Assembly (NCBI RefSeq): GCF_003234445.2 | Contig: NZ_CP126269.1 | Location: 124,001-188,000 of the forward strand | DNA: 64,000 nt | Direction of reading: 5' to 3' | DNA from: Curtobacterium sp. MCLR17_036 | Lineage (GTDB): Bacteria; Actinomycetota; Actinomycetes; Actinomycetales; Microbacteriaceae | Part shown: one piece after another, positions 5,595 to 35,132 of the stretch | Layout: every line of letters starts with the position of its first letter | Position numbering within the stretch: position 1 is the first letter of the stretch | The notes under the pieces: generated by a model | Told to the model about the DNA's origin: nothing | What the model saw: the letters and a program-made list of their open reading frames with translations, nothing else | Databases searched by the model: none | Made by a program: the position numbers and the translations under genes

Positions 5595-5620
5595 AAAACC
5601 CCCGTTGACGCGGGGGTTTT
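5595..5620 (+). terminator. Terminator of tRNA-Ser
   Basis: A 10-bp perfect stem, AAAACCCCCG (5595-5604) with CGGGGGTTTT (5611-5620), and a 6-nt loop, followed by CTTATCT. It starts 4 bp after the encoded CCA. Confidence 0.9.
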
Positions 5621-5624
5621 CTTA

Positions 5625-8075: not shown

Positions 8076-8114
8076 CCCTCAAGTGGCCGCTCGCACTGGG
8101 CTGCCATTAGAGCG

Positions 8115-8291: not shown

Positions 8292-8315
8292 GTATATCGA
8301 TCTTGTCAGCCCACG

Positions 8316-9470: not shown

Positions 9471-9484
9471 CGGGTCACCGCCTC

Positions 9485-10493: not shown

Positions 10494-10895
10494 ATGGGAC
10501 GATACAGACGACGCCTCGCGCTCGTCACCGCGGTCTGGGTGCTCGGCTTCGGCATCGGGGCCGCGACGCACCTGTTCGAGCTGATCACCGCGGGCATGGG
10601 CGTCTACGCCGACGCACCTGAGCCGGTCCGGTGGTTCTGGGTCGCACTCACCGTCGTCGATCCCGTCATCGTCGTGCTGCTCCTCGTCAGGCGCCGAGCC
10701 GGTGTCCTCAGTGGAGTGACCACGATGGTCGCGGACGTCCTGGTCAACTGGTCGGCGGCGTTCGCACATCCTGCACTCGCCGGGCCCGGGCTCGTCACGC
10801 AGCCGGCGTTCCTGCTGTTCCTCCTGCTCACCGCCCGGCCGCTCTGGAGGTCTGCCGGAGCGACGCGACCTCGCCGGCGGCATCCCGACGGCTGA
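10494..10895 (+). CDS. Four-helix membrane protein, hypothetical
   Basis: 133 residues from ATG 10494. There are four hydrophobic helices: LALVTAVWVLGFGIGA, WFWVALTVVDPVIVVLLLV, a third around TTMVADVLVNWSAAFAH, and QPAFLLFLLLTARPLW. The C-terminus is basic. It resembles small integral membrane proteins of Actinobacteria of unknown role. It ends 1 bp from the convergent GNAT gene. The frame is open further upstream but not protein-like. Confidence 0.7.
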   Translation: MGRYRRRLALVTAVWVLGFGIGAATHLFELITAGMGVYADAPEPVRWFWVALTVVDPVIVVLLLVRRRAGVLSGVTTMVADVLVNWSAAFAHPALAGPGLVTQPAFLLFLLLTARPLWRSAGATRPRRRHPDG

Positions 10896-18970: not shown

Positions 18971-19989
18971 CCGACCAGACCACTGGGTCGGCCCCGGCAC
19001 GCACGGCGCGTGCCGGGGCCCCCGCCTCCGACCGGGGTCTGGGCCCACGCCGCCGGTTCCGGCGCGACGCGCCAGCGGCGGGCCGGCCGAGACGGTGGGG
19101 AGAGGCGCGCCCCACCCGCCGCCGAGCGCGCCGCTTCCAGCCGGCCTGGCTCTTCATGGCCCCGTCGCTGCTCATCCTCGGCGTGTTCGTCGTCTTCCCG
19201 ATCCTGCGCTCGCTGTACTACTCGTTCTTCGACTGGACGGTCGGTGCGGTCTCGCAGCAGTTCGTCGGCTTCGGCAACTACGTGCAGCTCGCCCACGACC
19301 CGCAGTTCTGGAACGCCCTGCGCGTCACGCTCGAGTACACGGTCGTCTCCGTCGTCCTGCTCGTGGTGCTCGGCTTCGTCGCCGCGCTCCTGCTGCAGTG
19401 GGACACGCTGCTCAACCGGATCGTCCGGTCGGTGTTCTTCTTCCCGACGATCGTGTCGCTCGTCACCATCGGCCTGGTCTGGAAGTTCCTGCTCGACCCC
19501 GACATCGGGCTCGTCGGGGGCATCACCGCCCTGCTCGGGCTGCCGAGCGTCGCCTGGCTGCAGTCGACCTCGCTCGCCCTGCCGACCGTGATCCTGGTCT
19601 CGGTGTGGAAGAGCATCGGCTTCGCGATGATCCTGTTCATCGCCGGGCTCAAGGGCGTGCCGGCGGAACGCTACGAGGCCGCCGAGCTCGACGGCGCGAA
19701 CCGCTGGCAGACCACCTGGCGGATCACGCTGCCGAGCATCCGGCCGACGCTGCTCTTCACGTCGATGATCCTGACGATCCAGTCGTTCCAGGTGTTCGAC
19801 CTCGTCTACGTCATGACCGGCGGCGGCCCCGTGTTCGCCACCGACTCCCTCGTGAACCTGCTCTACCGCGACGGGTTCGTCGACTACCAGACCGGCTACG
19901 CGTCGGCGATCTCCTGGGTCCTCTTCGTGATCATCATGCTCATCTCCGTCCTGCAGCTCCGACTCTTCCGGTACGACGATGTCGACTGA
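18967..19989 (+). CDS. Sugar ABC transporter permease (MalF/UgpA-like)
   Basis: 340 residues from GTG 18967, overlapping the binding-protein stop by 4 bp. After a 55-residue basic, disordered N-terminus come six membrane helices, starting FMAPSLLILGVFVVFPILRS. The cytoplasmic EAA loop YEAAELDGANRWQTTWRITL that contacts the ATPase is clear. It forms the channel with the next permease. No ATPase gene is present in the operon, so a shared MsmK-type ATPase encoded elsewhere probably drives it. Its stop overlaps the next gene by 11 bp. Confidence 0.92.
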   Translation: MTDQTTGSAPARTARAGAPASDRGLGPRRRFRRDAPAAGRPRRWGEARPTRRRARRFQPAWLFMAPSLLILGVFVVFPILRSLYYSFFDWTVGAVSQQFVGFGNYVQLAHDPQFWNALRVTLEYTVVSVVLLVVLGFVAALLLQWDTLLNRIVRSVFFFPTIVSLVTIGLVWKFLLDPDIGLVGGITALLGLPSVAWLQSTSLALPTVILVSVWKSIGFAMILFIAGLKGVPAERYEAAELDGANRWQTTWRITLPSIRPTLLFTSMILTIQSFQVFDLVYVMTGGGPVFATDSLVNLLYRDGFVDYQTGYASAISWVLFVIIMLISVLQLRLFRYDDVD

Positions 19990-20899
19990 CGCGCTCACCC
20001 GGCGACCGTCCGAGACGGAGCCGACCCGTGCCTCCCGGCCGACCACCGACCACCGACGGCGGCGACACGGTCGCCAGAGCGGCCTCGTCGTCACCGGCTC
20101 CGTCCTGAAGTGGGTGTACCTCGGCATCGGACTCGTGTTCGCGCTCGTGCCGTTCGTCTGGATGGTGAGCGGGTCGTTCCGCTCCGAGGCGGACCTGTTC
20201 GGCCACCCCGCCTCGCTGTTCCCGACCAGCGTCACGCTGCACGGGTACCAGGGGGTGTGGTCGCAGCTGCCGTTCCTGCGGCTCCTGCTCAACTCGTTCG
20301 TCTTCACGGTCGTGACCACCGTGCTGACGCTGCTCTTCGACTCGATGTGCGCCTACGCGCTCGCGCGGATGCGGTTCGTCGGCCGGAACGTCGCGTTCGT
20401 GCTCGTCATCGCGACGCTCATGGTGCCGTTCCAGGTGACGCTCATCCCGGTCTTCGTGGAGCTGTTCCACCTCGGCTGGCTGAACACCTACCAGGGGCTC
20501 ATCATCCCGCGGGCCACCTCGGCCTTCGGCATCTTCCTGTTCCGGCAGTTCTTCATCGACATCCCCCCGGAGCTCGACGAGGCCGCGCGCATCGACGGTG
20601 CCGGGCACTGGCGGATCTACTGGCAGGTCATCCTGCCGCTGGCGAAGCCCGCGATCGCGACCGTGGCGGTCCTCAACGGCATGGCGCTGTGGAACGACCT
20701 GCTCTGGCCGCTCGTCATCAGCACCTCGAACGACATGCTCACCCTGCCGGCCGGGCTGACGCTCTTCGGCGGAGCCCACGTGACGGACCACGCCGTCCTG
20801 CTCGCCGGGGCCGTGATCTCGCTGCTGCCGATCGCCGTCGGGTTCTTCTTCGCGCAGAAGTACTTCGTCGCCGGCGTCGCGACGTCCGGGCTGAAGTGA
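19979..20899 (+). CDS. Sugar ABC transporter permease (MalG/UgpE-like)
   Basis: 306 residues. A basic N-terminus is followed by six membrane helices and the EAA motif DEAARIDGAGHWRIYWQVIL. The VPFQVTLIPVFVELFHLGWL region and N-x-x-x-W-P-L-V near the C-terminus are typical of MalG-type subunits. It pairs with the permease encoded just upstream. Its stop overlaps the GH1-like gene's GTG (GTGA), so the operon continues. Confidence 0.92.
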   Translation: MSTDALTRRPSETEPTRASRPTTDHRRRRHGRQSGLVVTGSVLKWVYLGIGLVFALVPFVWMVSGSFRSEADLFGHPASLFPTSVTLHGYQGVWSQLPFLRLLLNSFVFTVVTTVLTLLFDSMCAYALARMRFVGRNVAFVLVIATLMVPFQVTLIPVFVELFHLGWLNTYQGLIIPRATSAFGIFLFRQFFIDIPPELDEAARIDGAGHWRIYWQVILPLAKPAIATVAVLNGMALWNDLLWPLVISTSNDMLTLPAGLTLFGGAHVTDHAVLLAGAVISLLPIAVGFFFAQKYFVAGVATSGLK

Positions 20900-22218
20900 C
20901 CGGCCCGTCCGCCTTCGCCCCCGGCACGTTCACGTGGGCGCTCGGCATCGAGGACACCTGCGTCTACCCACCCGCCCGGTTCGCGATGGCGCCGCTCGAC
21001 GAGCACGCGCTCACCGACCACGACGCGTCCTGGCGGGCGGACCTGGACACCGTGCGCGAACTCGGCGCGGGAGCGCTGCGCTACGGGGTCGACTGGCCCC
21101 GGGTGCACACGGCACCGGGGGAGTTCGACTGGTCCGTGCTCGACGAACGGCTCCCGCACGCCGCGGCCGACGGGGTCACCGTGATCGCCGACCTGGTGCA
21201 CTACGGCACACCCACCTGGCTCGACGACTCGTTCGCCGACCCGCGGTACCCCGATGCGATCGCCGAGTTCGCCGGCGCCTTCGCCGCGCGGTACGCCGGC
21301 GTCGTCGACCACGTCACGCCGCTCAACGAACCCATCACCACGGCCTCGTTCGCCGGGCTGCGCGGGGTGTGGCCCCCGGGCCTGACCGGCTGGGACGGGT
21401 GGACGTGCGTCGTGCTCGGCATCGCCGCGGGCATCCAGCGCACCGTCCGGGCCGTCCGTGCCGCGAACCCCGCGGCGGTCGTCGTCCACGTCGAGGCCAG
21501 CACCCTCGTCGAAGCCGCGGACGACACGGCCGAGACCCGGGCGGAGGCCGAGCTGCTCGAGACGCTCGGCACCGTGCCGACCGACCTCGTCCTCGGTCGC
21601 GTCACGGCCGACCACCCCGCCCACGGCTGGCTGCGGTCCCACGGCGCCACGACACCGGTGCTGCGCGCACTGGTCGACGGCGCGGTGTCGATCGACCTGC
21701 TCGGCGTCAACTACTACCCGGACCTGTCACCCCGACGGCTCGTGCACGAAGCGGGCCGGGTCGTGCAGCACGCACACGACCGGTGGACGGACGGCCTCGA
21801 GGAGACCGTCCGGCGCTTCGACCAGCGGTACGGGCTGCCGATGCTCGTCACCGAGACCTCCATCGAGGGCGACGACGCGGTGCGGTCCGCCTGGGTGCGG
21901 GACGCAGCCGGTGCGGTGCAGGGACTCGTGGCGCAGGGCGTCGACGTCCGGGGCTTCACGTGGTGGCCGATGTTCGACTTCGTGGACTGGTCGTACGCGG
22001 CCGGCGGCAGGAACGTCGAGGAGTTCGAGCTCCCCGCCGAACTCATCGCGGAACGCGCCGAGAGCGTGCGGAAGACCCCGTACCTGCGGCGGATGGGCCT
22101 GCTCCGGCTCGAGGAACAGGCCGACGGCACGCTCGCACGGGTCCGCACCGGTGCCGCGGCGGCGTTCTCGCGGTGCGCGGCCGGCGACGAGGACGTGCAG
22201 CGGGCCGCGGGGTCCTGA
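20896..22218 (+). CDS. GH1-like glycoside hydrolase, cytoplasmic
   Basis: 440 residues from GTG 20896. A (beta/alpha)8 glycoside hydrolase of the GH1/clan A type: W-A-L-G-I-E-D opening, G-A-G-A-L-R-Y-G-V-D-W-P-R, acid/base Glu145 in PLNEP, N-Y-Y-P, and nucleophile Glu320 in LVTETS, then W-W-P-M-F-D-F-V-D-W. It has no signal peptide, so it would hydrolyse the imported oligosaccharide. It is divergent from classic beta-glucosidases (V-T-E-T-S instead of I-T-E-N-G), and exact specificity cannot be read. Last gene of the arabinoside operon. Confidence 0.85.
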   Translation: MTGPSAFAPGTFTWALGIEDTCVYPPARFAMAPLDEHALTDHDASWRADLDTVRELGAGALRYGVDWPRVHTAPGEFDWSVLDERLPHAAADGVTVIADLVHYGTPTWLDDSFADPRYPDAIAEFAGAFAARYAGVVDHVTPLNEPITTASFAGLRGVWPPGLTGWDGWTCVVLGIAAGIQRTVRAVRAANPAAVVVHVEASTLVEAADDTAETRAEAELLETLGTVPTDLVLGRVTADHPAHGWLRSHGATTPVLRALVDGAVSIDLLGVNYYPDLSPRRLVHEAGRVVQHAHDRWTDGLEETVRRFDQRYGLPMLVTETSIEGDDAVRSAWVRDAAGAVQGLVAQGVDVRGFTWWPMFDFVDWSYAAGGRNVEEFELPAELIAERAESVRKTPYLRRMGLLRLEEQADGTLARVRTGAAAAFSRCAAGDEDVQRAAGS

Positions 22219-22898: not shown

Positions 22899-23075
22899 AT
22901 GCGCAACGTCAGCGTTCTGGAAGAGATCGACGAGCAGGGCATGAGCGACCTGCAGGCCGGCCAGGGGATCGGGACGACCGTCACCACGCTGAGCTGCTAC
23001 GGCGTGAGCTGGGCACTCGGCAACGACGGCAACTTCTGCACCGCCACGGTCGAGTGCCAGTCGAACTGTAAGTGA
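22899..23075 (+). CDS. lanA1: Lantibiotic alpha-peptide precursor (two-component class II)
   Basis: 58 residues from ATG 22899, with TGAGGAG 6 bp upstream. The acidic leader (VLEEIDEQGMSDLQAG) is short. The C-terminal 32 residues carry L-G-N-D-G-N-F-C-T-A-T-V-E-C. This matches the alpha peptides of lichenicidin, haloduracin and lacticin 3147 (pattern L/W-G-N-x-G-x-x-C-T-x-T-x-E-C-x-x-x-C), which bind lipid II. Cysteines are C33, C47, C53 and C57; dehydratable residues include T26, T27, T29, T30, S32, S37, T48, T50 and S55. As I recall it, the lichenicidin alpha core aligns over all 32 positions without gaps. Cleavage could follow G21 or G25. Confidence 0.93.
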   Translation: MRNVSVLEEIDEQGMSDLQAGQGIGTTVTTLSCYGVSWALGNDGNFCTATVECQSNCK

Positions 23076-23078
23076 CCA

Positions 23079-23112
23079 GTCGGGCGCGTGCCGACGTCGG
23101 CACGCGCCCGAC
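23079..23112 (+). terminator. 34-bp perfect palindrome between lanA1 and lanM1 (attenuator)
   Basis: A 17-bp arm (GTCGGGCGCGTGCCGAC) is followed at once by its exact complement, starting 4 bp after the lanA1 stop and ending 20 bp before lanM1. No T run follows. Such a hairpin would stabilise the short precursor message and let only part of transcription reach lanM1. The functional reading is inference. Confidence 0.8.
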
Positions 23113-23131
23113 CACCACGAGGGGGACGATC

Positions 23132-26125
23132 ATGACGATCGCAGCGACGGACGAACTGATCTCGGTGTACATCCCGGAGATCACCGAGTCGACCAGGGCG
23201 GCCCGGGTCGGTGAGCGCCTGGCTGAGCTGATGGAGAGTCGGGACGGAAATGCCGGTACCGATCGGGATGCGGCTCGGAGAGGGCTCGCGCCCGCATTCC
23301 GAGAAAAGCGTCTCGACATTGTCGCCGACGAACGCGACCTCTACTTCTCGACATTCATCGAGGCCGTCGTCGACGTCTGGGCGCCGAACGGGGGAATCCC
23401 TGTCCTCCCGGAATCGGTGCGGTCGGAACTCGTCGCTCGACAGCGAAGTCTGGCGTTCAGTGCGCTGCTCCGGTCGTTGCTCGACGAGTTGCACCACCGC
23501 CGCGATGCCGGGTTCCTCTCCGCGGCGACGTCGGAAGCCCGCTTCGACGAGTTCTCGGCCTGGATCACCTCCGAAGCAGGCGTGACCGTCTTCGCGAACC
23601 GTCACGACGGCGCTCTCGCAGCTGCGCACCGCGCGGTCACCAGCGCGGGGCGGGTAGCCGAGGAAGCGTTCCGCCGGATCGAAGCCGACCGCGGAGCGCT
23701 GGCTCGGGAGTTCCCTGGTCTGGACCCGGAATCGCCCGTCCGCCTGCTCGGCATCGGCGGAGGCGACACGCATCGAGGGGGTCGGTCCGTCGGTGTGGTC
23801 GAGTTCGTCGACGGACAGCGCGTCGTGTACAAGCCGCGCAGCGTCGGTACGGACACCGCGTGGAACGGCTTGTTGGGGGACCTCCGCAACCTCGGAGTCG
23901 CCGATCTCCGTCCCCTGCGGTGCCTCGATCGTGGCCGGTACGGCTACACGGAGTTCGTACAGGCCGACCCGCCAGGGGCACCGGACGTCGCGTACCTCGA
24001 CGACATCGGGACCCTCACCGCTGTGTTGCACCTGGCGAACGGGTCGGACATGCACCACGAGAACGTGATCACGTCGGGCGGTCGAGCGGTCGTGGTCGAC
24101 ACGGAGACGGTCCTCACTCCGCGACCGGTGGTCGCGGAGTCGTACGACGACGGCGCCGCGTCGAAGGTCGCGAAGACGCGCATCACCGACTCCGTCCTCG
24201 GGATCGGCATCCTGCCGAACCTGGTGAAGGTCCCCGGACGCGAACAAGCGCTCGACATCGGCGCGGTCGGGTACGCGCCCGGCCAGACGGGCCCGTACCG
24301 GAGCCTCCTCCTCGTCGATGCCGGACGTGACGACATGCGGACGACCCTCGCGCACGCGTCGACCACAGTCGCCAGCGCCAACCCCGTCCTCGACCGAGAC
24401 GGTGACGTCCGTGCGGTGCGAGAGCCGATCCGCGATGCCTTCCGCCGTACCCTCGAGCGCGCGGCCGCCCGTCGAGCCGACGTGCAGCGCGCCTTCGTCG
24501 AACGGTTCGAGGGCACCGAGGTCCGCTACGTGCACGCCCCCACGATGTTCTACGCGCAGCTCCTCCGGATGGCCACCCACCCTGACCTCCTCGAGGACGA
24601 GCGCGCTCGTGCCGCGGTCATGTACCGGGTCGCGCTCCGGGAAGGCGCCGCGGCAACGAGCCTGGCCGACCTCGAGTTCGCGGAGCTCCTGGACGGCGAC
24701 GTCCCCTACTTCTGGTGCGACGCAGACGGCCGGGACCTCCACAACGCGAAGGGCGCTCCGGTCCCGTCGTTCTTCGTGGAGAGTCCCCTGGAGCGCGTCC
24801 GGCAGCGGATCGCAGGACTCGAGCTGGACGCGATCGAGGAACAGAGCACACTGTTGGACCTCGCGTTCGTGAACCGCCTGCCCCGCGAGGCCGAGCGCAC
24901 CGTGCTGGCCACGGGCACTCGGCACGACGCCGCGCGACCGAACCGTCGACGAGGGCGCGAGGCGTCGGCGAGAGCGCACCGTGCCGCGAGCAGGATCGCC
25001 GACTCGGTCGTCTCCAGTCCCGATCCCGCTCACCCGGCCACCTGGATCGGTCCGCAGGTGACGACGTCCGACCAGGCGCAGTGGCTGCCCGGCACCCTCG
25101 GGTACGACCTGTACGGCGGGAGCACCGGTGTCGCCCTCTTCCTCGCCGCCTCGGCAGCGGTGAACGGCGACGAGCGGGTCGCGGCAGTCGCCGAGCGGGT
25201 CTTCGCGCCGATCGAACGGCAGCTCGTCGATCGTCAGGTGGACCCGACAGCGGTGTCCGGCGGCGGCATGACCGGCATGGGGGGCACGGTCTGGGCGCTG
25301 TCCCGTTCGAGACGGCTCCTCGCCGGCACCGGGCTGCGACCCGAACGGCAGGACCCGGGCGCGGACGGCGTCCTGCTGCAGCGCCTGGCCGAGTCGGTGC
25401 AGACCGACACGTCCGCCGACTTCACGAGCGGACTCGCCGGGACACTCGCGGCCGCGCTCGACATCGAGGGGGGCTCGCAGTCACCCTCCACGGACGTCAT
25501 CGCTGAACGGCTCTGCTCGGTGCTCCGGATCCCGGCGGACGGTCGCCCTCGCTACACCGGCTACGCGCACGGGACGGCAGGGATCCTGCGACCCCTGCTC
25601 GCTTGGGCGGACTCGCGCGACGACGAGCGAGCCCGGGACCTCGGCGGCCGACTGCTCGCGGAACTGGTCTCCGCCCGGCACGACGACGGTGAGTACCCGC
25701 GTCAGTTCGACGGCGACCCCGCAGAGCGATCGTGGGCGTGGTGTCACGGGGCTCCGGGGATCCTGCTCGGGCTGCTCGGAGCGCGCGCGTCCCTGCCGGA
25801 GCACGTGCCGGACTCACTCCTCCGCCCCCTCGTCACCAGCAGCGTGGAGCGAGCGCTCGGGAACAACCCGACGCTCTGCCACGGGGACGCCGGGACCCTC
25901 GACATCCTCGCCGAGGCGGCAGAGGTGCTCGGGGACGACGTGCTGGCGAGCACCGTCGACGACGCGTTCGCGACCCTCCTCGACGACGGACTCCTCGTCG
26001 GACGACGGCGCGACTCGAAGTACGACCACACCGACAGCCTCATGGTGGGGACCGCCGGCATCGGTTGGACGCTGCTGCGCCATGCAGCCGACCGCCACCT
26101 GCCGAGCGTGCTCTCCCTCAGTTGA
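23132..26125 (+). CDS. lanM1: Class II lanthipeptide synthetase LanM1 (for the alpha peptide)
   Basis: 997 residues from ATG 23132 after GAGGGGG; an in-frame GTG at 23072 would run through the hairpin. The N-terminal two thirds is the kinase-like dehydratase, with K234 in VVYKPRS and D306-M-H308-H-E-N followed by V-V-V-D-T-E-T, which phosphorylates and eliminates Ser/Thr. The C-terminal cyclase is LanC-like: H813 in YAHGTAG, zinc ligands C871 (WCHG) and C916-H917 (LCHG). It makes the thioether rings of the alpha precursor encoded just upstream. Length and domain order are normal for LanM. Confidence 0.95.
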   Translation: MTIAATDELISVYIPEITESTRAARVGERLAELMESRDGNAGTDRDAARRGLAPAFREKRLDIVADERDLYFSTFIEAVVDVWAPNGGIPVLPESVRSELVARQRSLAFSALLRSLLDELHHRRDAGFLSAATSEARFDEFSAWITSEAGVTVFANRHDGALAAAHRAVTSAGRVAEEAFRRIEADRGALAREFPGLDPESPVRLLGIGGGDTHRGGRSVGVVEFVDGQRVVYKPRSVGTDTAWNGLLGDLRNLGVADLRPLRCLDRGRYGYTEFVQADPPGAPDVAYLDDIGTLTAVLHLANGSDMHHENVITSGGRAVVVDTETVLTPRPVVAESYDDGAASKVAKTRITDSVLGIGILPNLVKVPGREQALDIGAVGYAPGQTGPYRSLLLVDAGRDDMRTTLAHASTTVASANPVLDRDGDVRAVREPIRDAFRRTLERAAARRADVQRAFVERFEGTEVRYVHAPTMFYAQLLRMATHPDLLEDERARAAVMYRVALREGAAATSLADLEFAELLDGDVPYFWCDADGRDLHNAKGAPVPSFFVESPLERVRQRIAGLELDAIEEQSTLLDLAFVNRLPREAERTVLATGTRHDAARPNRRRGREASARAHRAASRIADSVVSSPDPAHPATWIGPQVTTSDQAQWLPGTLGYDLYGGSTGVALFLAASAAVNGDERVAAVAERVFAPIERQLVDRQVDPTAVSGGGMTGMGGTVWALSRSRRLLAGTGLRPERQDPGADGVLLQRLAESVQTDTSADFTSGLAGTLAAALDIEGGSQSPSTDVIAERLCSVLRIPADGRPRYTGYAHGTAGILRPLLAWADSRDDERARDLGGRLLAELVSARHDDGEYPRQFDGDPAERSWAWCHGAPGILLGLLGARASLPEHVPDSLLRPLVTSSVERALGNNPTLCHGDAGTLDILAEAAEVLGDDVLASTVDDAFATLLDDGLLVGRRRDSKYDHTDSLMVGTAGIGWTLLRHAADRHLPSVLSLS

Positions 26126-26237
26126 GGCGGCTCCGAACGTCCCCGCCCGCGGGGTAGCAGACGCTCGCGACGATCTCCGTCGCGAGCCGGGCAGCACCGT
26201 CCGGTGCCGCCCTGACAACAACGACAGGAGAACGATC

Positions 26238-26441
26238 ATGACCATCTCGAACCTCCGTTCCGCCGACCGCAGCACCGGCTACGTCGCCGAGGACGAGCTC
26301 GTCCTGCTCGCCGACGACGGCGTCGACGCAGGCGTCGCAGGGACGACGACCGTGCCCTGCGGTGTCGCAGGCACGATCATCGCCGCCAGCGCCGCCCTCC
26401 CCGGTTTCTGCCCGACGGGAGCCTGCACCTCGAAGTGCTGA
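26238..26441 (+). CDS. lanA2: Lantibiotic beta-peptide precursor (two-component class II)
   Basis: 67 residues from ATG 26238 with AGGAG 7 bp upstream. The acidic leader contains AEDELVLLADDGVDAG. The core, from TTTVPC to the C-terminus, ends F-C-P-T-G-A-C-T-S-K-C. This matches beta peptides of haloduracin, lichenicidin and lacticin 3147, whose cores begin T-T and end C-P-T-T-K-C-T-x-x-C. Cysteines are C41, C58, C63 and C67; T36-T38, T46, S51, T60, T64 and S65 can be dehydrated. Cleavage likely after G35 (V-A-G) or G32 (D-A-G). The beta partner would form pores after the alpha peptide binds lipid II. Confidence 0.93.
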   Translation: MTISNLRSADRSTGYVAEDELVLLADDGVDAGVAGTTTVPCGVAGTIIAASAALPGFCPTGACTSKC

Positions 26442-26446
26442 GCAGT

Positions 26447-26477
26447 CGGCGGGGTGTCGCTCCACGGCACCCCGCCG
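26447..26477 (+). terminator. Hairpin between lanA2 and lanM2 (attenuator)
   Basis: A perfect 10-bp stem (CGGCGGGGTG 26447-26456, CACCCCGCCG 26468-26477) with an 11-nt loop, starting 5 bp after the lanA2 stop. It parallels the palindrome after lanA1, so both precursors are followed by a strong structure before their LanM gene. Confidence 0.75.
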
Positions 26478-26596
26478 CGCTCGCTCCGCCGCGCCCGTGC
26501 GTCACCTGGACGGTCGAGCGCTGCAATCCGTCACCGGGAAGCCACCGCGACCCGGTTCGGACACCACACCCGACCGACCCCTTCCCGGAGCAGCTC

Positions 26597-29344
26597 ATGA
26601 CGGTCCTCCTGATCCCCGTGACCCACGTCGACGACCCGGATGTCGACCGGATGGTCGACGAAGTCGTCTCCGCCGGAGCAGACCGGTTCGGAGAGTTCCA
26701 CCGCCGCCGCCTCCGTGCCGTGGGGGCCCAGCTCCTGGTCGGGTTGCGCGCTTCAGGCGCCGACATCGATGTCAGATCGGTCCTCGAGGGACTGCTCGCC
26801 GACATCGCTCGCGACCTCGACGGGATAGCGGTACGCACCTTGATCACGGAGTTCCGCGAGCACGGAGGCACCTTCTCGGACTTCGCCGCCTCGCTCAAGC
26901 AGACGTCGGCGGTCCGAGCGGTGGAAGAGCGCGCACCGGAACTCGCGCGACTGCTCGACCTCACGGTCGAACGCGACGTCCGCGCCGCGCTCGAGGTGGT
27001 CGACGCCGTTCGTCAGGACCAGGACGCGTTGCGGGGACTGGGTGTGGTCGGCTCCGTGCGGTCCATCCGCTTCGGGAGCGCGGACAAGCATGCCGGAGGC
27101 CGGTCCGTGAGCATCGTCACCGACACCTCGGGCAATCGCGTCGTCCACAAGCCGGCCGTCGCCGACCAGGACCGGCTCCTCCGCGGTGTCCTCGAGCTGG
27201 CAGATCCGGACGGTGTCGTCTTCGGACCCGTCGTCGCACCCGCGACTCTGCACCGGACGGGACGCCCGCACACCTGGCAGCGATTCGTGTCCCACGACGA
27301 CCTGCCGGACCCGGATGCTGTCGATCGGTGGTTCACCCGCTACGGAGCGCTCGTCAGCCTCGCGCACGCGCTGGGGAGCACCGACCTCCACTTCGAGAAC
27401 CTGATCGCGACTGCCGACGGCCCGGTGGTCGTCGACGTCGAGACCGTGTCGAGCATGCTCGCCCCGGCAGCAACCGACGTATCCGCGCACGAGGCGCTCC
27501 GCGACCACATCGACCGGTCGGTACTGCACTCCATGCTCCTGCCGACGCGGTTCGCCGGTTCGCGTCTGGGCTCGGACATCTCCGGTCTGCGCAGCGCTGC
27601 GACGGCGCGGACCGCGATGACCGGTTTCGACGTCGTCGACGCCGGCACGGACCACATCCGCTTCGACGACACCACCAGCTCCGTCCCGCTCGCTGCGAAC
27701 CGCGTCACCTCCCAGGGTCGTGAGGTCGACGCTCGTGACCACACGGCGGCGATCCAGCGAGGGTACCGCCGCGGTCGCGCCGCACTCGTCGCTGCAGCGC
27801 CGGCGATCGCCGCGGCGTTGGAGGACCTCGTGCCGTCGACGGTGCGACAGGTCTTGCGACCGACGTACGTGTACGTGCGGTTCCTCGAGGCGTCGACGCA
27901 CCCGAACTACCTCCGCGGAACCGACCAGCGACGCGCGCTCTTCGAGCGGCTTCCGGTCCGCTTCCGGTCCGCCACCGACACGGCCGCACCGGAACTCCAC
28001 CGCGCCGAGGTCGACGCCTTGGTCGACCTCGACGTCCCCGCCTTCGACATCGAGGCGCGATCCACGGGCATGCAGGTCCGCGGAACCGGTCGACGGGTGA
28101 GCGGTGCGGCCTGGACGGACCTCGTGTCGACGGTGCAGGAGTGGTTCGACGGGTTCCTGTCCGCCGACCCGGACGACGCCGTGCGGCTCATCGAGCTCGC
28201 ACTGGTCTCGGCGGCCGACGACGTCTGGGACGTCCCGACGGCCCCTCCGCGGGGTGAGCCGTCGCTCGTGCCGCCGGCGACGATCTGCTCGTCGGACGGG
28301 CGCACCGCGACGAGGTTGACCGTGACGGCCCTGGGTGACGGTCTGCGTCTGACGCCGATCGGTCTCAGCCTGTTCGAGGGTGGAGGAGAGTTGCTCGTCG
28401 AAGCAGCGACGGCGCCGGGTGAGGAGATCGATGCACTCGTCGGCGGGGCCGTGGTCCACGTCCTGCCGGATCCCGACGTCATCGAGCCCTGGCACCTGTC
28501 GGTCTACACGGGGATCCTCGCCGACACCGTGACGCTCATCGAACTCCAGCAGCGGGGCAGACGGGTGCCGTCGGTGCCCGTGCTCCCTGCGTCGCTGGCA
28601 CCCGAGGCCCTGCGGTCGGCCTCCCCACCGGACCTCGACCACCTCAACGGCCTGGGCGGGTACCTCCGTGCGCTGCGTGTCCACGCCGACCACGTCGACG
28701 GACTCGACCGGGACGCGCTCGGACGTGTCCTGTCCGATCGGCTCGCGGCTTGGGGGTCGTCGTTGCTCGAGCACCCCGAGGGCGACGTCGGCCTCGCCCA
28801 CGGCATCGCGGGACGGATCCTCGCCGTGGCGGACGCGGCGGTCCTGGCGGGGTGGCCGCACGGGACTCGGGCCCGTGTCGAGGCCCTGGTCTCCTCCTGG
28901 CGCGAGGTCGTGCTGGACGGCTCCGCCATGCGTGATCGTCGTACTCGTCGAGCGTGGTGCAAGGGCGTGGCCGGCACGGCGTTCGCCCACGAACAGGTGC
29001 TGCGCAGTCTCGACCGCGACCGCGACGCGATCGTGGCGGAACTCGGACCGGAACTGGAGCTGCTCCGGTCGGTCTCTCCGACCGTCGCGGGTGAGGACGT
29101 CGACGTCAGTCTCTGCCACGGTGTCGCGGGGACGGCGGCGGTGCTCGCCGGGTTGGGGGAGCGCCTCGCCCTCCCCGACCTCACGGACCACGCTGACCGC
29201 CTCGTCCGTGCGGCACGGTCCGGGGTCCCCCGATCGGGACTGCTCGGCGCACCCCGGCTGGACTCCTTCTTCCTCGGTGCAGCAGGGTGGCGCGCTGTGC
29301 GGGACGGGCTCCCGCTCCCGGCGCTGCTGGGAGGGACGCGATGA
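26597..29344 (+). CDS. lanM2: Class II lanthipeptide synthetase LanM2 (for the beta peptide)
   Basis: 915 residues from ATG 26597 (MTVLLIPVTH); upstream in-frame codons to 26435 cross the hairpin and are not protein-like. Dehydratase domain: VVHKPAVADQD, then GSTDLHFENLIATADGPVVV with D-V-E-T-V. Cyclase domain: H735 in LAHGIAG, C788 in AWCKGVAGTAF, C840-H841 in SLCHGVAG. It is only distantly similar to LanM1, as expected when each enzyme serves one precursor. Its stop overlaps the lanT start (ATGA). Confidence 0.95.
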   Translation: MTVLLIPVTHVDDPDVDRMVDEVVSAGADRFGEFHRRRLRAVGAQLLVGLRASGADIDVRSVLEGLLADIARDLDGIAVRTLITEFREHGGTFSDFAASLKQTSAVRAVEERAPELARLLDLTVERDVRAALEVVDAVRQDQDALRGLGVVGSVRSIRFGSADKHAGGRSVSIVTDTSGNRVVHKPAVADQDRLLRGVLELADPDGVVFGPVVAPATLHRTGRPHTWQRFVSHDDLPDPDAVDRWFTRYGALVSLAHALGSTDLHFENLIATADGPVVVDVETVSSMLAPAATDVSAHEALRDHIDRSVLHSMLLPTRFAGSRLGSDISGLRSAATARTAMTGFDVVDAGTDHIRFDDTTSSVPLAANRVTSQGREVDARDHTAAIQRGYRRGRAALVAAAPAIAAALEDLVPSTVRQVLRPTYVYVRFLEASTHPNYLRGTDQRRALFERLPVRFRSATDTAAPELHRAEVDALVDLDVPAFDIEARSTGMQVRGTGRRVSGAAWTDLVSTVQEWFDGFLSADPDDAVRLIELALVSAADDVWDVPTAPPRGEPSLVPPATICSSDGRTATRLTVTALGDGLRLTPIGLSLFEGGGELLVEAATAPGEEIDALVGGAVVHVLPDPDVIEPWHLSVYTGILADTVTLIELQQRGRRVPSVPVLPASLAPEALRSASPPDLDHLNGLGGYLRALRVHADHVDGLDRDALGRVLSDRLAAWGSSLLEHPEGDVGLAHGIAGRILAVADAAVLAGWPHGTRARVEALVSSWREVVLDGSAMRDRRTRRAWCKGVAGTAFAHEQVLRSLDRDRDAIVAELGPELELLRSVSPTVAGEDVDVSLCHGVAGTAAVLAGLGERLALPDLTDHADRLVRAARSGVPRSGLLGAPRLDSFFLGAAGWRAVRDGLPLPALLGGTR

Positions 29345-31488
29345 AGGCCGCGGTTCGGGTGCGCGTGGTGCAGCAGTTCACCCAGTCCGAGTGCGGGTTG
29401 TGCTGCAGTGCCATGGTCCTCTCCGCGTACGGAGCGAACGGCACGGTGGCGGCTCTCCGGCGTGAGTACGAGACGGGTCGGGACGGTCTCGGGCTGCGCG
29501 ACGTGGTCGTCCTGCTCCGTCGGCAGGGGATGGAGGTCCGGCCCTACCGCGCGAGCATCGCTGCAGCGCGGCAGCTGGACGGTCCGTTGATCGCCTACTG
29601 GGACGACAGCCACCTGGTCGTCGTGGAGCGGATCCGGAAGGACGACGTCGACATCGTCGACCCGGCCACGGGACGCAGACGGATCCCGATGTCGGAGTTC
29701 CTCGAGCACTACTCCGGCGTGGTGATCCACGCCGTGCCCGCCGAGGACTGGGTGCAACGCCGTCCGCGCGAACGGAGCGTCTGGGCCTCGTTCCTCCGCC
29801 AGACCTCGGGTCTGCGGAACCCGATCAGCGTCGCGGGTGCGCTCAGCCTCGTGCTCTACCTCGCCGTGCTCGGGGTCCCGCTCGCCACGGAGTACGCCGT
29901 GAACGAGTACGGCTCCTTCGTCGGCGACAGCCCGGCGCTCCTGATCGCGCTCGTGCTGGCCCTGTCGATGCTCAGCTACTACGCGGTGTCCGCGCTGCGG
30001 AACCGGGTGATCGCCCGCATCGTCAGCGGACTCGGCTCGGTGATGATGACGACCACCTTCGGTCGTCTGCTCGAGCTGCCCTTCAAGTACTTCGCGAACC
30101 GTTCGTCCGGTGAGCTCATGTACCGCCTCGCGAGCGTGACGTCGGTCCGCGACATGATCAGCGGACAGCTCACGATGGTCGTGCTCGACCTCGGTACGTT
30201 GTTCGCGGTCTTCACCTACCTGTTCCTCCGCTCCGCCGTGCTCGGATCCGTTGCCCTCGGACTCCTCGGCGTCATGGTGGCCGTGGCCGTCATCGGGTAC
30301 CGGCCGAGTCGCACGGTGATCGACGACGAGATCGCGGAGACGACGCGAGCGTCGTCGATGCAACTCGAAGCGCTGTCGTCCATCGAGACGTTGAAGGTCT
30401 CGGGCATGACCGGGCGGTTCCTCGAGGAATGGCGGACGGTCTACGCACGCGCGGTCGGGCACACCGCTCGACGGATCGTCGTGCAGGGACGGATCTCGAG
30501 CGCGACCAGCGCTCTGCAGATGTTCGGTCCGCTGGTCGTGCTGCTGGTGGGACTCGGACTCGTACGGACGGGTGACCTCGGCCTCGGAGCGGCAGTGGCG
30601 TCGCAAGCGCTCGCCGCGACGGCGCTCGGCACGGTCCTCAGCCTGTCGTCCTCGTTCTCCCAGTTCGTCCTCGCGAACGCGCAGGTCTCCAGGCTGGGAG
30701 ACATCGTCAACCAGCCCGAGGACGAACCGGTCTTCGGTGAGGACGACGTCGACCTCGACGGGTCCATCGACGTGTCGGCCGTGCACTTCACCTACCCCGG
30801 GGCCACCCGCCCCGTGCTCCGCGACATCGACGTCACCGTCCGCGCCGGAGAACGGGTCGCGATCGTCGGGAGCACGGGGTCGGGGAAGAGCACGCTCGGC
30901 AAGTTGTTGCTCGGGTTGCACCCGGTCTCCGAGGGTTCGATCGCGTTCTCGGGTCGGCGGCTGGACGAGATGACTCCCGACTCGCTGTACCGCGCCGTCG
31001 GGCACGTGCCGCAGGACGTCGTGCTGAGCAACCGCTCCATCGCGGAGAACATCGACTTCACGGGTGGGGTGCCCGACATGCCGCTGGTCCACGCCGCGGC
31101 GGGTCTGGCATCGCTCACCGCCGACGTCGAACGGATGCCCCTCGGCTTCCACACCCAGGTCCGTGAGATGGGCGGGAGCCTCTCCGGGGGGCAGCGGCAG
31201 CGGATCGCCCTCGCACGCGCGCTGGCACGCCGGCCCAAGGTGCTCGTCCTCGACGAGGCCACCAGTGCGCTGGACGCGGTGACGGAGGCTGCGATCGCCA
31301 ACTCGCTCCGCGAGATGCGGTGCACCCAGGTCGTGATCGCTCATCGGCTGTCGACGATCATGGCCGCCGACCAGATCCTGGTCATGCAGGACGGCCGGAT
31401 CGTGCAGCGGGGCACACATCCCCAGTTGCTGGCGGTCGACGGCGTCTACCGCGACCTGGTCCGAGCGCAGATGGAAGTCGTCGAGTGA
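29341..31488 (+). CDS. lanT: LanT: C39 peptidase-containing ABC exporter
   Basis: 715 residues. An N-terminal C39 cysteine peptidase has Cys18 in QSECGLCC, His91 in DDSHLVVV and Asp107 in DIVDPATG. A six-helix exporter domain (about 160-430) follows. The ATPase domain has Walker A GSTGSGKST, signature LSGGQRQRIALA and Walker B VLVLDEATSALD. It cuts the leader after a double-glycine-type site and exports the mature peptides. One transporter serves both precursors, as in other two-peptide systems. ATG 29341 overlaps the lanM2 stop. Confidence 0.96.
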   Translation: MKAAVRVRVVQQFTQSECGLCCSAMVLSAYGANGTVAALRREYETGRDGLGLRDVVVLLRRQGMEVRPYRASIAAARQLDGPLIAYWDDSHLVVVERIRKDDVDIVDPATGRRRIPMSEFLEHYSGVVIHAVPAEDWVQRRPRERSVWASFLRQTSGLRNPISVAGALSLVLYLAVLGVPLATEYAVNEYGSFVGDSPALLIALVLALSMLSYYAVSALRNRVIARIVSGLGSVMMTTTFGRLLELPFKYFANRSSGELMYRLASVTSVRDMISGQLTMVVLDLGTLFAVFTYLFLRSAVLGSVALGLLGVMVAVAVIGYRPSRTVIDDEIAETTRASSMQLEALSSIETLKVSGMTGRFLEEWRTVYARAVGHTARRIVVQGRISSATSALQMFGPLVVLLVGLGLVRTGDLGLGAAVASQALAATALGTVLSLSSSFSQFVLANAQVSRLGDIVNQPEDEPVFGEDDVDLDGSIDVSAVHFTYPGATRPVLRDIDVTVRAGERVAIVGSTGSGKSTLGKLLLGLHPVSEGSIAFSGRRLDEMTPDSLYRAVGHVPQDVVLSNRSIAENIDFTGGVPDMPLVHAAAGLASLTADVERMPLGFHTQVREMGGSLSGGQRQRIALARALARRPKVLVLDEATSALDAVTEAAIANSLREMRCTQVVIAHRLSTIMAADQILVMQDGRIVQRGTHPQLLAVDGVYRDLVRAQMEVVE

Positions 31489-31566
31489 CCCTCGTTCGGG
31501 GGGTCTGCTACCGTGAGGTGGAACGAGTCGGGGACCTCGTCGCCGGCAGGGGAAGGGGCCGAACAC

Positions 31567-32514
31567 ATGCCTGATCGCAGCGTCCTGGGCAGGACCGACC
31601 ACGACGGGGTGGTCGTCGACGTCGACGGTCTCTCCCGCAGGTTCGGTGACCGTGAGGTGGTGTCCGACGTGTCGTTCTCCGTCCGTCCCGGACGGGTCAC
31701 CGGGTTCCTCGGCCCGAACGGAGCAGGGAAGACGACCACCTTGCGCATGATGCTCGACCTGCTGGAACCGACCGCGGGACGTGCCACGTTCGACGGCGTG
31801 CGGTACCGCGACCTCGCCCGTCCGAGCACCGTTGTCGGAGCCTCGCTGGAGAGCAGCGCCGTTGCGCGCGGGCGACGTGGGAGATCGCACCTGCTCGCGT
31901 ACGCCGCGCCCGCGCATGCTGCTCGGACCCGGGTCGAGGAGCTCCTCGACGTCGTCGGGCTCGCAGAACACGCTCGTCGTCGTGTCGGCGACTACTCGCT
32001 CGGCATGCAGCAGCGACTGGCGCTCGCCACCGCGCTCCTCGGCGACCCGGACGTCCTCGTCCTCGACGAGCCAGCCAACGGCCTGGACCCGAGCGGCGTC
32101 TACTGGCTCCGGACGTTCCTCCGCGACTTCGCCGCCTCGGGTCGGACGGTGCTCCTGTCGAGCCACATGCTCGCGGAGATGGAGTTGATCGCGGACGACG
32201 TCGTCCTGATCGACCGGGGTCGGACCGTCTTCACCGGCTGCCTCTCGGACCTCCTCGACGAGGACACGACGGTCGTGACGCCGTACGGGCCCGATGCGCA
32301 CCGCCTCCTCGAAGCCGAGTTGTCGAGGCGCTTCCCGGTCGAGGCGATCGCGGGGACACGGTTGCTCGTCTCGGCGCCGGTCGCCTCGGTCTCGCCGGTG
32401 GTCGACGACCTCGTCGCTGCCGACCCGTGGTTGCGTGGCGGGTTCTCGATCGAACGGCTCGGACTCGAAGCGGCGTTCCTCGCACGGGTCGCCCCGGAGG
32501 TGTCGGCCCGATGA
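31567..32514 (+). CDS. lanF: LanF-like ABC transporter ATPase (self-immunity)
   Basis: 315 residues from ATG 31567. It has Walker A FLGPNGAGKTTT, signature DYSLGMQQRLALA, Walker B VLVLDEPANGLDPSG and a C-terminal extension typical of the LanF/BcrA group. With the next gene it would pump the lantibiotic away from the membrane to protect the producer. The gap after lanT is 78 bp with no hairpin, so it is probably the same transcript. The signature Q-Q in place of K-Q is a small departure. Confidence 0.9.
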   Translation: MPDRSVLGRTDHDGVVVDVDGLSRRFGDREVVSDVSFSVRPGRVTGFLGPNGAGKTTTLRMMLDLLEPTAGRATFDGVRYRDLARPSTVVGASLESSAVARGRRGRSHLLAYAAPAHAARTRVEELLDVVGLAEHARRRVGDYSLGMQQRLALATALLGDPDVLVLDEPANGLDPSGVYWLRTFLRDFAASGRTVLLSSHMLAEMELIADDVVLIDRGRTVFTGCLSDLLDEDTTVVTPYGPDAHRLLEAELSRRFPVEAIAGTRLLVSAPVASVSPVVDDLVAADPWLRGGFSIERLGLEAAFLARVAPEVSAR

Positions 32515-33296
32515 GAGCGCAGGTCCAGTCAGAGTTCATCAAGGCCGCGAGTGGTCGGACGTGGTGGGTGATCGGCCTGATCCTGCTGGTGGTCGCGCCG
32601 TCGTTCTCGGCGTTCCTGGTGTTCGCCGTCCACGCTGCGCCGCAGGCACGTCTCGACCTCGACGGGCCTGACGGCGTCGGGGTGCTGTACAACCTGCCGG
32701 CTTCGATCGCCTACGTGCTGCCGCTGATCTTCGGTGTCCTGGTCGTCACGTCCGAGTACCAGTCCCGGACGATCTCGCAGACCTTCCTGGCCGAGCCGCG
32801 TCGACTCGTGGTCTTCGCGGCCAAGCTCGTGGTCGGCTTCGTGTTCTCGGCGGCGCTCGCCGTCTCCGCGATGCTCGTGACTGCGGTGGTCGTGGCCCTC
32901 GCGCTGACCGCCACCGGAACGGACCCTGCCGCCACGACCGATGCGGTGACGTCACGGCTCGCGGGTGCTGTCCTCACGCTGACCCTCTGGGGCCTCATCG
33001 GGGTCGGGGTCGGGGCCCTCGTGCGCAACCAACTGGTCGCCGTGGTGGTCGTCCTCGCGTTCACGCAGTTCGTCGAGCCGATGCTCCGTGTCCTCGCCGG
33101 TTCAGTCGGCTTCACGGACGCCCTGCGGTACCTGCCGGGCTCGGCGAGTGACAGTGCCAGCGGTGGGACGCTGCTCTCCCTCGCGACGGGCGCGTCGTCT
33201 GCCGACCAGACGCTGGGGATCGGCGTCCTCGTCGTGTACGTCGTCATCGCAGTGCTGGCAGGAGCCGTCCGGTTCCGCCGTCCGATCACCGCCTGA
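32511..33296 (+). CDS. lanE: LanE/LanG-like ABC permease (self-immunity)
   Basis: 261 residues from ATG 32511, overlapping the ATPase stop (ATGA). It has six predicted membrane helices and the ABC-2 type opening MRAQVQSEFIKAASGRTWWV. Then come TSEYQSRTISQTFLAEPRR, a motif of bacitracin/lantibiotic-immunity permeases, and a basic end (V-R-F-R-R-P-I-T-A). Only one permease gene is present, so it may work as a homodimer rather than as an E/G pair. Confidence 0.88.
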   Translation: MRAQVQSEFIKAASGRTWWVIGLILLVVAPSFSAFLVFAVHAAPQARLDLDGPDGVGVLYNLPASIAYVLPLIFGVLVVTSEYQSRTISQTFLAEPRRLVVFAAKLVVGFVFSAALAVSAMLVTAVVVALALTATGTDPAATTDAVTSRLAGAVLTLTLWGLIGVGVGALVRNQLVAVVVVLAFTQFVEPMLRVLAGSVGFTDALRYLPGSASDSASGGTLLSLATGASSADQTLGIGVLVVYVVIAVLAGAVRFRRPITA

Positions 33297-33313
33297 AACG
33301 GAAGGACCGTCTC

Positions 33314-33514
33314 GTGAAGCCCTCGACCCTCAACCAGAACATCGTCCTCGTCTGCGGCCTCGTCTGCGTCGTGCTCGGCGCCGTCGTGGGACCGCTCGTG
33401 TCAGACGTGCCCGTCACGACCTGGATCCCTGTCGTCATCGGTCTCCTCCTGCTCGGGCAGTGGCTGCTGATGCGCCGCGCCGCCGCGCAACGGAGTGACC
33501 GCTCCAACGGCTGA
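33314..33514 (+). CDS. Small two-helix membrane protein at the end of the lantibiotic cluster
   Basis: 66 residues from GTG 33314, with GGAAGGA upstream and 17 bp after the permease stop. Two hydrophobic helices (IVLVCGLVCVVLGAVVGPLV and WIPVVIGLLLLGQWLLM) are followed by a basic tail RRAAAQRSDRSNG. By position it could be an accessory immunity peptide of the LanI/LanH sort, but the sequence itself is not diagnostic. Confidence 0.7.
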   Translation: MKPSTLNQNIVLVCGLVCVVLGAVVGPLVSDVPVTTWIPVVIGLLLLGQWLLMRRAAAQRSDRSNG

Positions 33515-33534: not shown

Positions 33535-33797
33535 TCACTCGAGGGGGCAACGCCTCGTGAGCGCGACCGAGACGGACGGGAGGCGCGGTGCGGATCCGCA
33601 CCGTGCCTCCCGTCCTTCAGTGGCTCGCGACAGAGGACTGACGCCTCCGTCGACGACGAGGGTCGTGCCGGTGACCCACTGCGCACGGTCGGACGCGGGG
33701 GAGGCCACGGCCGCGGCGACGTCCTGGCGGACGGCGACGGTCACGGGGCGGACGTTGCCAGGCACGATCGCGGTGACGCGGATGCCGACGGGGCCAG
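33535..33797 (-). pseudogene. Short-chain dehydrogenase remnant with internal deletion
   Basis: On the reverse strand the frame reads PVGIRVTAIVPGNV, the SDR strand after the catalytic Tyr-Lys helix. It then jumps to QDVAAAVASPASDRAQWVTG and TTLVVDGG, the SDR C-terminus. The 40 or so residues normally between them are missing, as is the whole N-terminal half with the cofactor and catalytic motifs. The frame then runs on through the palindrome at 33574, so the natural stop is lost too. Confidence 0.7.
33574..33615. repeat. Dispersed palindrome, copy 3
   Basis: A 19-bp stem with one mismatch (GGACGGGAGGC left arm, GCCTCCCGTCC right arm) and loop GATC. It lies 60 bp after the last lantibiotic gene and probably ends its transcript. 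Confidence 0.85.
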
Positions 33798-34325
33798 GAG
33801 GGCGACCGGACCACGCACTGGTCGCCGTGGGAGGTCTGCCAGGTCCGCACCGAGGACGGCGGCACGGTCGTCGTCGACGGCGCGGGTCCGGCGGACGAGT
33901 TCGACCTCGGCACGTGGGAGGGCGCGGTGCAGGGGCACGGCGGCCCGGACGGCGTGGTGCTGCCCGTCGGCACCGGGGTCGCGAAGCGCGGCTACCGCGC
34001 CGGGCGCTCGGTCGGGTACCGCCGGGCCTCGGGCACCGTGATCGCGCTCGCCGCGGCCGAGGAACCGGACGACTGCGCTGAACACCCCGACGGCGCTGAA
34101 CACCCCGACGGCGCTGAACACCCCGTCGGCGCTGAGTACCCCGACGGCGGTGCGCGGTTCGAGGTGTGGCTGCAGCGCCCCGTCGCCGCACCGATCGCCG
34201 CGCTCGAGGACCTGCGGCCCGACGCACACCTGGCCGAGCTCGAGGTGCTCGGACGCCGGAGCCCGCTGGCGCCGGGGGCATCGAGGACCACCGCGATCCG
34301 GTGGTGGGTCAGCCCGGCGACCTGA
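33795..34325 (+). pseudogene. 5'-truncated gene of unknown family with hexapeptide repeats
   Basis: The plus frame from about 33795 reads like real protein (TTHWSPWEVCQVRTEDGGTV and FDLGTWEGAVQGHGGPDGVV). It has no start codon with a ribosome-binding site and begins exactly where the opposite-strand SDR piece ends. It continues with AEHPDG-type hexapeptide repeats and ends PIRW-W-V-type residues before TGA at 34325 (TTAIRWWVSPAT). I do not recognise the family. It looks like the surviving 3' part of a gene after a deletion. Confidence 0.5.
34077..34148 (+). repeat. 18-bp tandem repeat, four copies, in frame
   Basis: Four units of GCTGAACACCCCGACGGC-like sequence start at 34077, 34095, 34113 and 34131; the third has one and the fourth two changes. 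They encode A-E-H/Y-P-D/V-G four times within the truncated gene. Confidence 0.92.
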
Positions 34326-34703: not shown

Positions 34704-34867
34704 GGCAGGTCCTCGTTGGTGATCTGGGGTGGAGTGCGGCAGTAGCCCTTGATCGCGGGTGCGAACGATGCGAACCAAGCCTCGAACTCGGGGGTGTCAG
34801 TGGCACCGATCTGGTCGAACGCTGCTCGATCGATGTCCAGGCTGTCGATGACTGCCGTGAGGCCCAA
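34700..34867 (-). CDS. Short upstream frame, possibly 5'-truncated gene
   Basis: The reverse frame reads GLTAVIDSLDIDRAAFDQIG, then T-P-E-F-E-A-W-F-A-S-F-A-P-A-I-K-G-Y-C, and ends NEDLP with TGA overlapping the next ATG. No ATG or GTG precedes it; TTG 34867 after GATGAGG is the only start, and the frame opens only after a stop about 35 bp further. It may be a 55-residue protein or the end of a lost gene. Confidence 0.4.
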   Translation of the reverse strand: MGLTAVIDSLDIDRAAFDQIGATDTPEFEAWFASFAPAIKGYCRTPPQITNEDLP

Positions 34868-35132
34868 GACCTCATCGTCAGTGTGTAGAGTTCTAGCACA
34901 AGTATTTCAGCAAAGGAAGAAATGGGGATTCGGTTACTCCCACGGATGCTCCGGTGATCGTTCCGCTCACTGAGTCAAGACCAGAACAAGCCGTCAGGCC
35001 GGAGTGGTACTGGTCCGAGCGGTCGTGAGCGCCGAGCTCGACGCTGCGAGCGGCACCGTGCTCGCGACCGCCACCGTCGCGGAGGCCACCGTCACTCCGG
35101 TACTGCTGACCACTGAGGGCCAGACTGGCCCG
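34868..35132. other. Intergenic, AT-richer patch
   Basis: Contains an A-rich stretch near 34900-34925. No gene recognised; the forward frame into the PAP2 gene is open here but reads as Val/Ala/Thr-rich sequence typical of noncoding GC-rich DNA. Confidence 0.4.

Follow-up and report, generated by a model that had tools for sequence, protein, structure and literature searches.

A 64,000-nucleotide stretch of Curtobacterium sp. MCLR17_036 (the window, positions 124001–188000 of a single 3.6-Mb contig) contains an operon which very probably (roughly 0.88) specifies a two-component class II lantibiotic of the lichenicidin/haloduracin/birimositide type, working as proposed below. Open reading frame analysis places eight consecutive genes on the + strand at 22899–33514, in the order alpha precursor, LanM1, beta precursor, LanM2, LanT, ATP-binding cassette (ABC) ATPase, ABC-2 permease and a 66-aa protein (gene starts were set by a simple script and the gene calls are GC-based). 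This is the gene set, order and position given by the original prediction, which had been made from the DNA letters. The identification as a two-component lantibiotic follows from curated models that match both precursors and both LanMs, and from the Pfam domains of LanT. It follows also from the recurrence of the same gene order in 8 of 11 actinobacterial loci (L009–L019) and in two further genomes of the same taxonomic order. Finally, LicM2 is the best solved relative of the LanMs, and a tree groups the window LanMs with actinobacterial counterparts. Chance as the source of the cluster matches is ruled out by the cut-offs of the curated models. The alpha and beta peptides appear to be new, as had been proposed, while the type of system has already been reported in other actinobacteria.

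The alpha precursor gene, lanA1 (22899–23075, +), encodes 58 aa, of which residues 1–21 form the leader and 22–58 the predicted core (QGIGTTVTTLSCYGVSWALGNDGNFCTATVECQSNCK). The product exceeds the cut-offs of Pfam PF14867 (Lantibiotic_a; 34 bits, cut-off 27) and NCBIfam NF000539 (plantaricin C; 42.1, cut-off 29), and by motif reading carries the mersacidin-like CTxTxEC lipid II motif. Its C-terminus, LGNDGNFCTATVECQSNCK, agrees with the alpha pattern originally claimed. Among about 5.8 billion clustered proteins, a word-based search found 10 other alpha relatives with 65–89% identity; the sole match in the PDB is a weak one to lichenicidin A1 (E 0.22). The beta precursor gene, lanA2 (26238–26441, +), encodes 67 aa with a predicted core at residues 36–67 (TTTVPCGVAGTIIAASAALPGFCPTGACTSKC). 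It ends in CPTGACTSKC, as expected of the beta-like end that had been recognised, and scores 42.7 bits against NCBIfam NF038161 (LchA2/BrtA2; cut-off 26), with no Pfam family matched. The same word-based search gave 4 other beta relatives, 63–78% identical, one of which, from Microbacterium sp. ZW T5_56, is annotated as a class II lanthipeptide of the LchA2/BrtA2 family. A beta homologue, P0021, and a LanM2 homologue, P0029, each list a longest contig of 21015 bases, and so may lie together. In alignments both precursors keep the cysteines invariant among their relatives, and AG or GG stands ahead of the conserved core in all 11 alpha and all 5 beta rows. GAGGAG and AGGAG stretches can be read 5′ of the alpha and beta starts, respectively.

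Two LanM genes each lie 3′ of one precursor gene, and from this position each enzyme is presumed to be dedicated to that precursor. LanM1 (lanM1, 23132–26125, +; 997 aa) scores 512 bits against TIGR03897 and has DUF4135 and LANC_like domains. LanM2 (lanM2, 26597–29344, +; 915 aa) matches the same model, so that both have the fused dehydratase–cyclase architecture of class II lanthipeptide synthetases, and they are the only LanM-model matches in the genome. The best solved relative of both is LicM2 (PDB 6st5; E 3.1e-52 for LanM1 and 7.6e-42 for LanM2). Motifs which we take to be catalytic or zinc-binding are present in LanM1, LanM2 and LanT. Four relatives are 50–52% identical to LanM2 and the next are Streptomyces proteins at 36% (the search scored only the 8000 candidates sharing most words).

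LanT (lanT, 29341–31488, +; 715 aa) combines a C39 peptidase (PF03412) with an ABC exporter (PF00664, PF00005) and contains the stretches QFTQSECGLC, HLVV and DPATG. The pairing of a double-glycine-type leader end with a C39-peptidase LanT is that of class II lanthipeptide clusters. The lanF-like ATPase gene (31567–32514, +; PF00005), for which a self-protection role is predicted, has the lantibiotic protection ATPase model TIGR03740 as its best NCBIfam match, at 174.9 bits and so below the cut-off of 309.75. The lanE/G-like ABC-2 permease (32511–33296, +; PF12730) occupies the same place in 10 of the loci L009–L019, and the eleventh ends at a contig edge. The 66-aa protein (33314–33514, +), a candidate immunity protein by virtue of its hydrophobic, membrane-protein-like sequence, matches no Pfam or NCBIfam family. 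A stretch with 30% identity to it lies in the same place in L070, and it is unmatched in L069 and in L009–L033. Just 3′ of this last gene is a terminator-like palindrome with 24-nt arms (33571–33618). Relatives of it, about 45–100 bp long, are found on either strand in many genomes of the genus, and it may represent a common terminator or a small dispersed repeat.

In the proposed mechanism each LanM would dehydrate and cyclise the precursor encoded ahead of it (LanM1 alpha, LanM2 beta), and LanT would cleave both after the AG motif and export them. The calculated monoisotopic masses of the unmodified cores are 3827.69 for alpha and 2968.42 for beta; each dehydration would take away 18.01, with at most 9 in alpha and 8 in beta, and four thioether rings are predicted in each peptide. 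The alpha peptide would then bind lipid II via its CTATVEC rings and recruit beta, which would form pores in Gram-positive neighbours. Lipid II binding and pore formation are attributed to these peptides by analogy. Protection of the producer would fall to the ABC pair, perhaps assisted by the 66-aa protein.

A scan of named genomes with the LanM2 alignment gave 25 loci. L009–L019 are actinobacterial (nine Streptomyces, one Streptomonospora and one Nocardiopsis); in a twelfth, L028, from an Actinomycetota metagenome-assembled genome, only a distantly matching LanM (30% over 473 residues) and stretches resembling LanT were recognised, with neither alpha nor beta matched. Of the loci lacking the complete order from alpha to the second ABC gene, L012 and L019 end at contig edges and L017 is without LanT after LanM2. 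LanM1 is 35.5–38.9% identical to the LanM1s of L009–L019. The gene order is shared by L069 and L070, from two genomes that belong to another family of the same taxonomic order, with alpha 75%, beta 52–56% and LanM2 only 37% identical to those of the window. In the Bacillota loci L021, L022, L024 and L031, alpha and beta are adjacent and lie between their LanMs. The alpha profile matched 1 of 398 family, 4 of 396 order and 5 of 394 class genomes, the window's own being counted each time (these sets are samples, and some of the other matches are weak). Of the 22 family genomes (among 398) matched by the LanM model, 3 were over its cut-off, the window's own and two with michiganin-like precursors. 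Within the genus LanM2 matched 3 of 66 genomes, at full length only its own; the matches in G051 and G011 are partial and 29–31% identical.

In a LanM tree of 40 rows (midpoint root only; the 1914-aa LanM2 frame of L011 was dropped by a length filter), the closest neighbours of window LanM1 are the actinobacterial LanM1s (100/100), and the Bacillota LanM1s join at the next level (99/99). Window LanM2 forms a group with four metagenomic LanM2s (100/100), which the actinobacterial LanM2s then join (100/100). Tentatively, the LanM1 side would fit shared ancestry of the systems of actinobacteria and Bacillota, and the LanM2 side seems to speak neither for nor against it; the reading is tentative because the window LanM1 branch is long and the composition of many rows differs.

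The cluster was probably acquired horizontally by one lineage of the species, since a genome of the same species carries a sugar operon at the site and the cluster has a lower GC content at third codon positions (GC3) than its surroundings. In this other genome (G031) the left flank is 98.8% identical up to window position 22218 and the right flank 92% identical from 33798, with 9.75 kb of other DNA, the sugar operon, where the cluster sits. Inspection by eye suggests that the operon encodes an AraC-type regulator and a sugar ABC transporter; Pfam identifies a DUF5107-TPR protein and a zinc dehydrogenase in it. Its last gene (in L057, open frame starting at 12209) is DUF4380-like, below the model cut-off. 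The window holds just the 3′ part of this last gene, as a 5′-truncated remnant at 33798–34325 (+; 92% identity to L057 12644–13679) in which no Pfam family was matched. Of 66 genomes of the genus, three (G031, G051 and G033) contain most of the length of the operon, at 81–100% identity. The simplest order of events would be that the sugar operon is the older and the cluster replaced it, a direction that we infer. GC3 is 0.855–0.915 for the eight cluster genes and 0.941–0.982 for 12 hand-chosen flanking genes; per-gene GC of the cluster, 0.64–0.71, is not unusual (the species has about 71% GC). A reading through the gene list, not a dedicated search, revealed no mobile-element genes at the cluster borders. 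Plasmid carriage was considered and rejected: alpha matched one plasmid record (Staphylococcus epidermidis SAP106A), beta matched the same record only, at E 0.6, and the 155 plasmid records matched by LanM1 were all below 60% identity.

The right border has other features of its own. The antisense strand of 33620–33797 resembles, by eye, the C-terminal end of a short-chain dehydrogenase, a second gene fragment there. An 18-bp tandem repeat (GAACACCCCGACGGCGCT type) at 34060–34130, within the truncated gene, is repeated fewer times in G031. About 1.2 kb of L057 (13679–14851) is missing from the window at 34865–34930, a second difference near the cluster.

Several observations weigh against a functioning two-component lantibiotic operon. 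A sigma-70 scan found no promoter-like site 5′ of alpha, and its one sigma-70-like site, before beta at 26212–26239, compares with 0.3 expected. There is no regulator gene among the cluster genes. LanM2 barely passes TIGR03897 (307 bits, cut-off 304). The beta alignment matched no lantibiotic in the PDB, only a hemin-binding protein at chance level. In the LanM tree as drawn, Bacillota LanM2s stand apart from those of actinobacteria.

The lack of a promoter-like site before alpha would suit a genuine cluster that fell silent, or is decaying, in this strain after the replacement, with no peptide made; so would the GC3 difference from the 12 chosen genes, the scars at the right border and the fact that LanM2 has no match in the species' other genome. 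However, none of the eight reading frames is interrupted, the expected motifs are there and both precursors retain the cysteines invariant in their relatives, and we regard silence or decay as very unlikely. The marginal LanM2 score bears on a different possibility, that the LanM2 cyclase is degraded and the enzyme only dehydrates beta, or that both precursors rely on LanM1. While the cyclase half is indeed weak (LANC_like 34.5 bits, cut-off 23.2), H735, C788, C840 and H841 are invariant in all 11 aligned sequences (LanM2 and 10 relatives), and the actinobacterial LanM2s form one well-supported group in the tree. Either form of this reading is as improbable as a silent cluster, and the LanM2 cyclase domain is divergent, with its zinc-ligand motifs intact.

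Least probable of all is that there is no synergistic pair, alpha acting alone as a mersacidin-like inhibitor and beta having another role. In its favour, L017 has a further alpha-like precursor that is accompanied by its own LanM but by no matched beta, and a beta-like frame was seen near alpha-like hits in just one (L065) of four other class genomes, whose loci, of about 3.2 kb, are short enough for a beta to lie outside. Against it, 10 of the loci L009–L019 have both alpha and beta (L012 is cut before alpha), as do L069–L071, and the related pair birimositide is synergistic (PMC7268733).

The L017 precursor in question lies with its LanM at 18829–22132 of that Nocardiopsis flavescens locus, some 9 kb 3′ of the first beta precursor, and a similar pair of alphas occurs in G1138 (L064, L068). 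In L071 (4793–17993, G659) and L065 (G968) alpha-like and beta-like precursors of other subtypes are close together in an arrangement unlike that of the window; L071 has several LanM-like stretches. The two genomes of the same family, G228 and G323, have precursors ending CTLTIECGT.ICACR just 5′ of LanM (L034, L035), which we take to resemble michiganin/actagardine-type lantibiotics.

The two-component operon has a further feature between its precursor and LanM genes. The alpha stop codon is followed at once by a hairpin with two perfectly complementary 17-nt arms (23079–23112, +, in the lanA1/lanM1 gap; folding z −4.55), and a second hairpin, with 13-nt arms 92% complementary, is in the lanA2/lanM2 gap (26447–26477, +; z −2.51). 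On folding of the 60 nt downstream of each precursor stop, z was −1.5 or lower after alpha in 9 of 11 actinobacterial loci (not L014 or L017) and −2.5 or lower after beta in 11 of 12 (not L017), the window included in both counts; many of the Streptomyces rows are closely related, so the counts are not independent. The thresholds were reached after a precursor stop in none of the four Bacillota loci, which are not a matched control as alpha there precedes beta and not LanM. By energies only, L069 and L070 have long stems at the same places and L071 has no stem after alpha. The stem sequences of the window and of Streptomyces differ. Since no T-run terminators were found at either inter-gene hairpin, the suggestion of an attenuator or mRNA-stabilising element, a possible one, derives from hairpin position and stability. 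The hairpins may serve to keep the precursor message above the synthetase message.

C-T-x-[ST]-x-E-C is present in all 30 alpha sequences counted, and a Ser 10 residues ahead of the first Cys of this motif in 29 (the exception is the second L017 precursor). A Ser/Thr 4 residues ahead of an N-terminal Cys is found in only 21 of the 30, so an N-terminal ring would be limited to a part of the family, to which the window alpha belongs. The nine without it are L014, both L017 alphas, L018, L071 and the Bacillota chromosomal L021, L022, L024 and L031; the N-terminal Cys itself is absent in L018, L021, L022, L024 and L031. By residue spacing alone, the ring-forming pairs in the window alpha would be Ser37–Cys47, Thr48–Cys53 and Thr50–Cys57, plus Thr29–Cys33; all 11 rows of the alpha alignment have Thr29 and Cys33. 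Lichenicidin alpha binds lipid II through its C-terminal mersacidin-like rings, and its N-terminal Abu3–Cys7 ring, called unique to it, may be a second, nisin-like contact (PMC9863751). The spacing of Thr29 and Cys33 is that of the Abu3–Cys7 ring, and its retention turns two lipid II contacts into a testable question. A bolder proposal is that alphas of the CYG/CLG branch (the window, its metagenomic relatives and most Streptomyces loci) would make two such contacts, with a nisin-like Thr29–Cys33 ring beside the mersacidin-like Thr48–Cys53 and Thr50–Cys57, and that this and a hairpin-set lanA:lanM ratio would be design rules of the lineage; this is doubtful at present.

Lichenicidin, haloduracin and lacticin 3147, from Firmicutes, have two precursors, two LanMs and a LanT. 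The window differs from them in that each LanM is 3′ of its own precursor with a hairpin between. The end of its alpha is Q-S-N-C and not the M-P-S-C of lichenicidin A1. Lichenicidin proper has a second protease of the LicP type for beta trimming, whereas the LanT C39 domain is the only peptidase domain in the eight cluster proteins, the set searched for it. The S. epidermidis plasmid SAP106A (NC_013379; L058 2120–2371) has an alpha core 64% identical over 36 residues, the STLGCYG segment included, and a gene annotated LchA2/BrtA2 to which window beta is weakly matched; this similarity crosses phyla. Its alpha leader differs from the window's. About 5 kb, spanning position 1 of the circular record, separates its two precursor genes, and an S8 peptidase gene lies nearby.

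The assumption that such a design belongs to Firmicutes is outdated. Homologous clusters are present in the named Streptomyces, Streptomonospora and Nocardiopsis genomes above, and actinobacterial pairs, birimositide among them, are known (PMC7268733). Some members of the lichenicidin-alpha-like family II 4 are actinobacterial, and their putative partners are in family II 49 (Walker et al. 2020, PMC7268733); here too a lichenicidin-type alpha goes with a separate actinobacterial type of beta. The window pair is distinct from these in sequence and is likened to them by description. Birimositide from Streptomyces rimosus, isolated and with its masses observed, is likewise an actinobacterial two-component class II lantibiotic, and the model matched by window beta is named LchA2/BrtA2. 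Its alpha is, however, lacticin 3147-like (II 9) and probably acquires D-Ala via the luciferase-like oxidoreductase LanJC (PMC7268733), a domain that Pfam found in none of the eight cluster proteins. Putative two-LanM clusters have been noted in S. hygroscopicus, S. bingchenggensis and S. viridochromogenes (PMC3951391). Roseocin from Streptomyces roseosporus, whose family has been extended, is also an actinobacterial two-peptide lantibiotic, but one with a single LanM for both peptides and an alpha without CTxTxD/EC (PMC10027976); two LanMs and CTxTxEC rule out membership for the window pair. No account of these two peptides or their cluster was found in the accessible literature on actinobacterial lanthipeptides (a review is PMC10676316), a body of work that mostly leaves out subscription papers. 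The papers listed for Curtobacterium, Microbacterium and Microbacteriaceae, judged mainly by their listings, likewise indicated no such cluster, PMC10456417 being concerned with other bacteriocins.

Elsewhere in the window, 5502–8114 has a tRNA-Ser gene followed by a stretch of 55% GC (6001–8000), in a genome of 71% GC, to which the GC-based script assigned no genes, as at an integrated element. PADLOC, applied to four small frames at 8115–10892, gave one weak match only (MTase_I, E 0.0096).

The cluster adds an apparently uncharacterised pair in a bacterial family where alphas of this kind are rare (1 of the 398 sampled genomes). The same-species genome with the sugar operon in its place provides a natural comparison, and the wider actinobacterial set lets the putative N-terminal second lipid II contact be checked as a common feature of alpha peptides.

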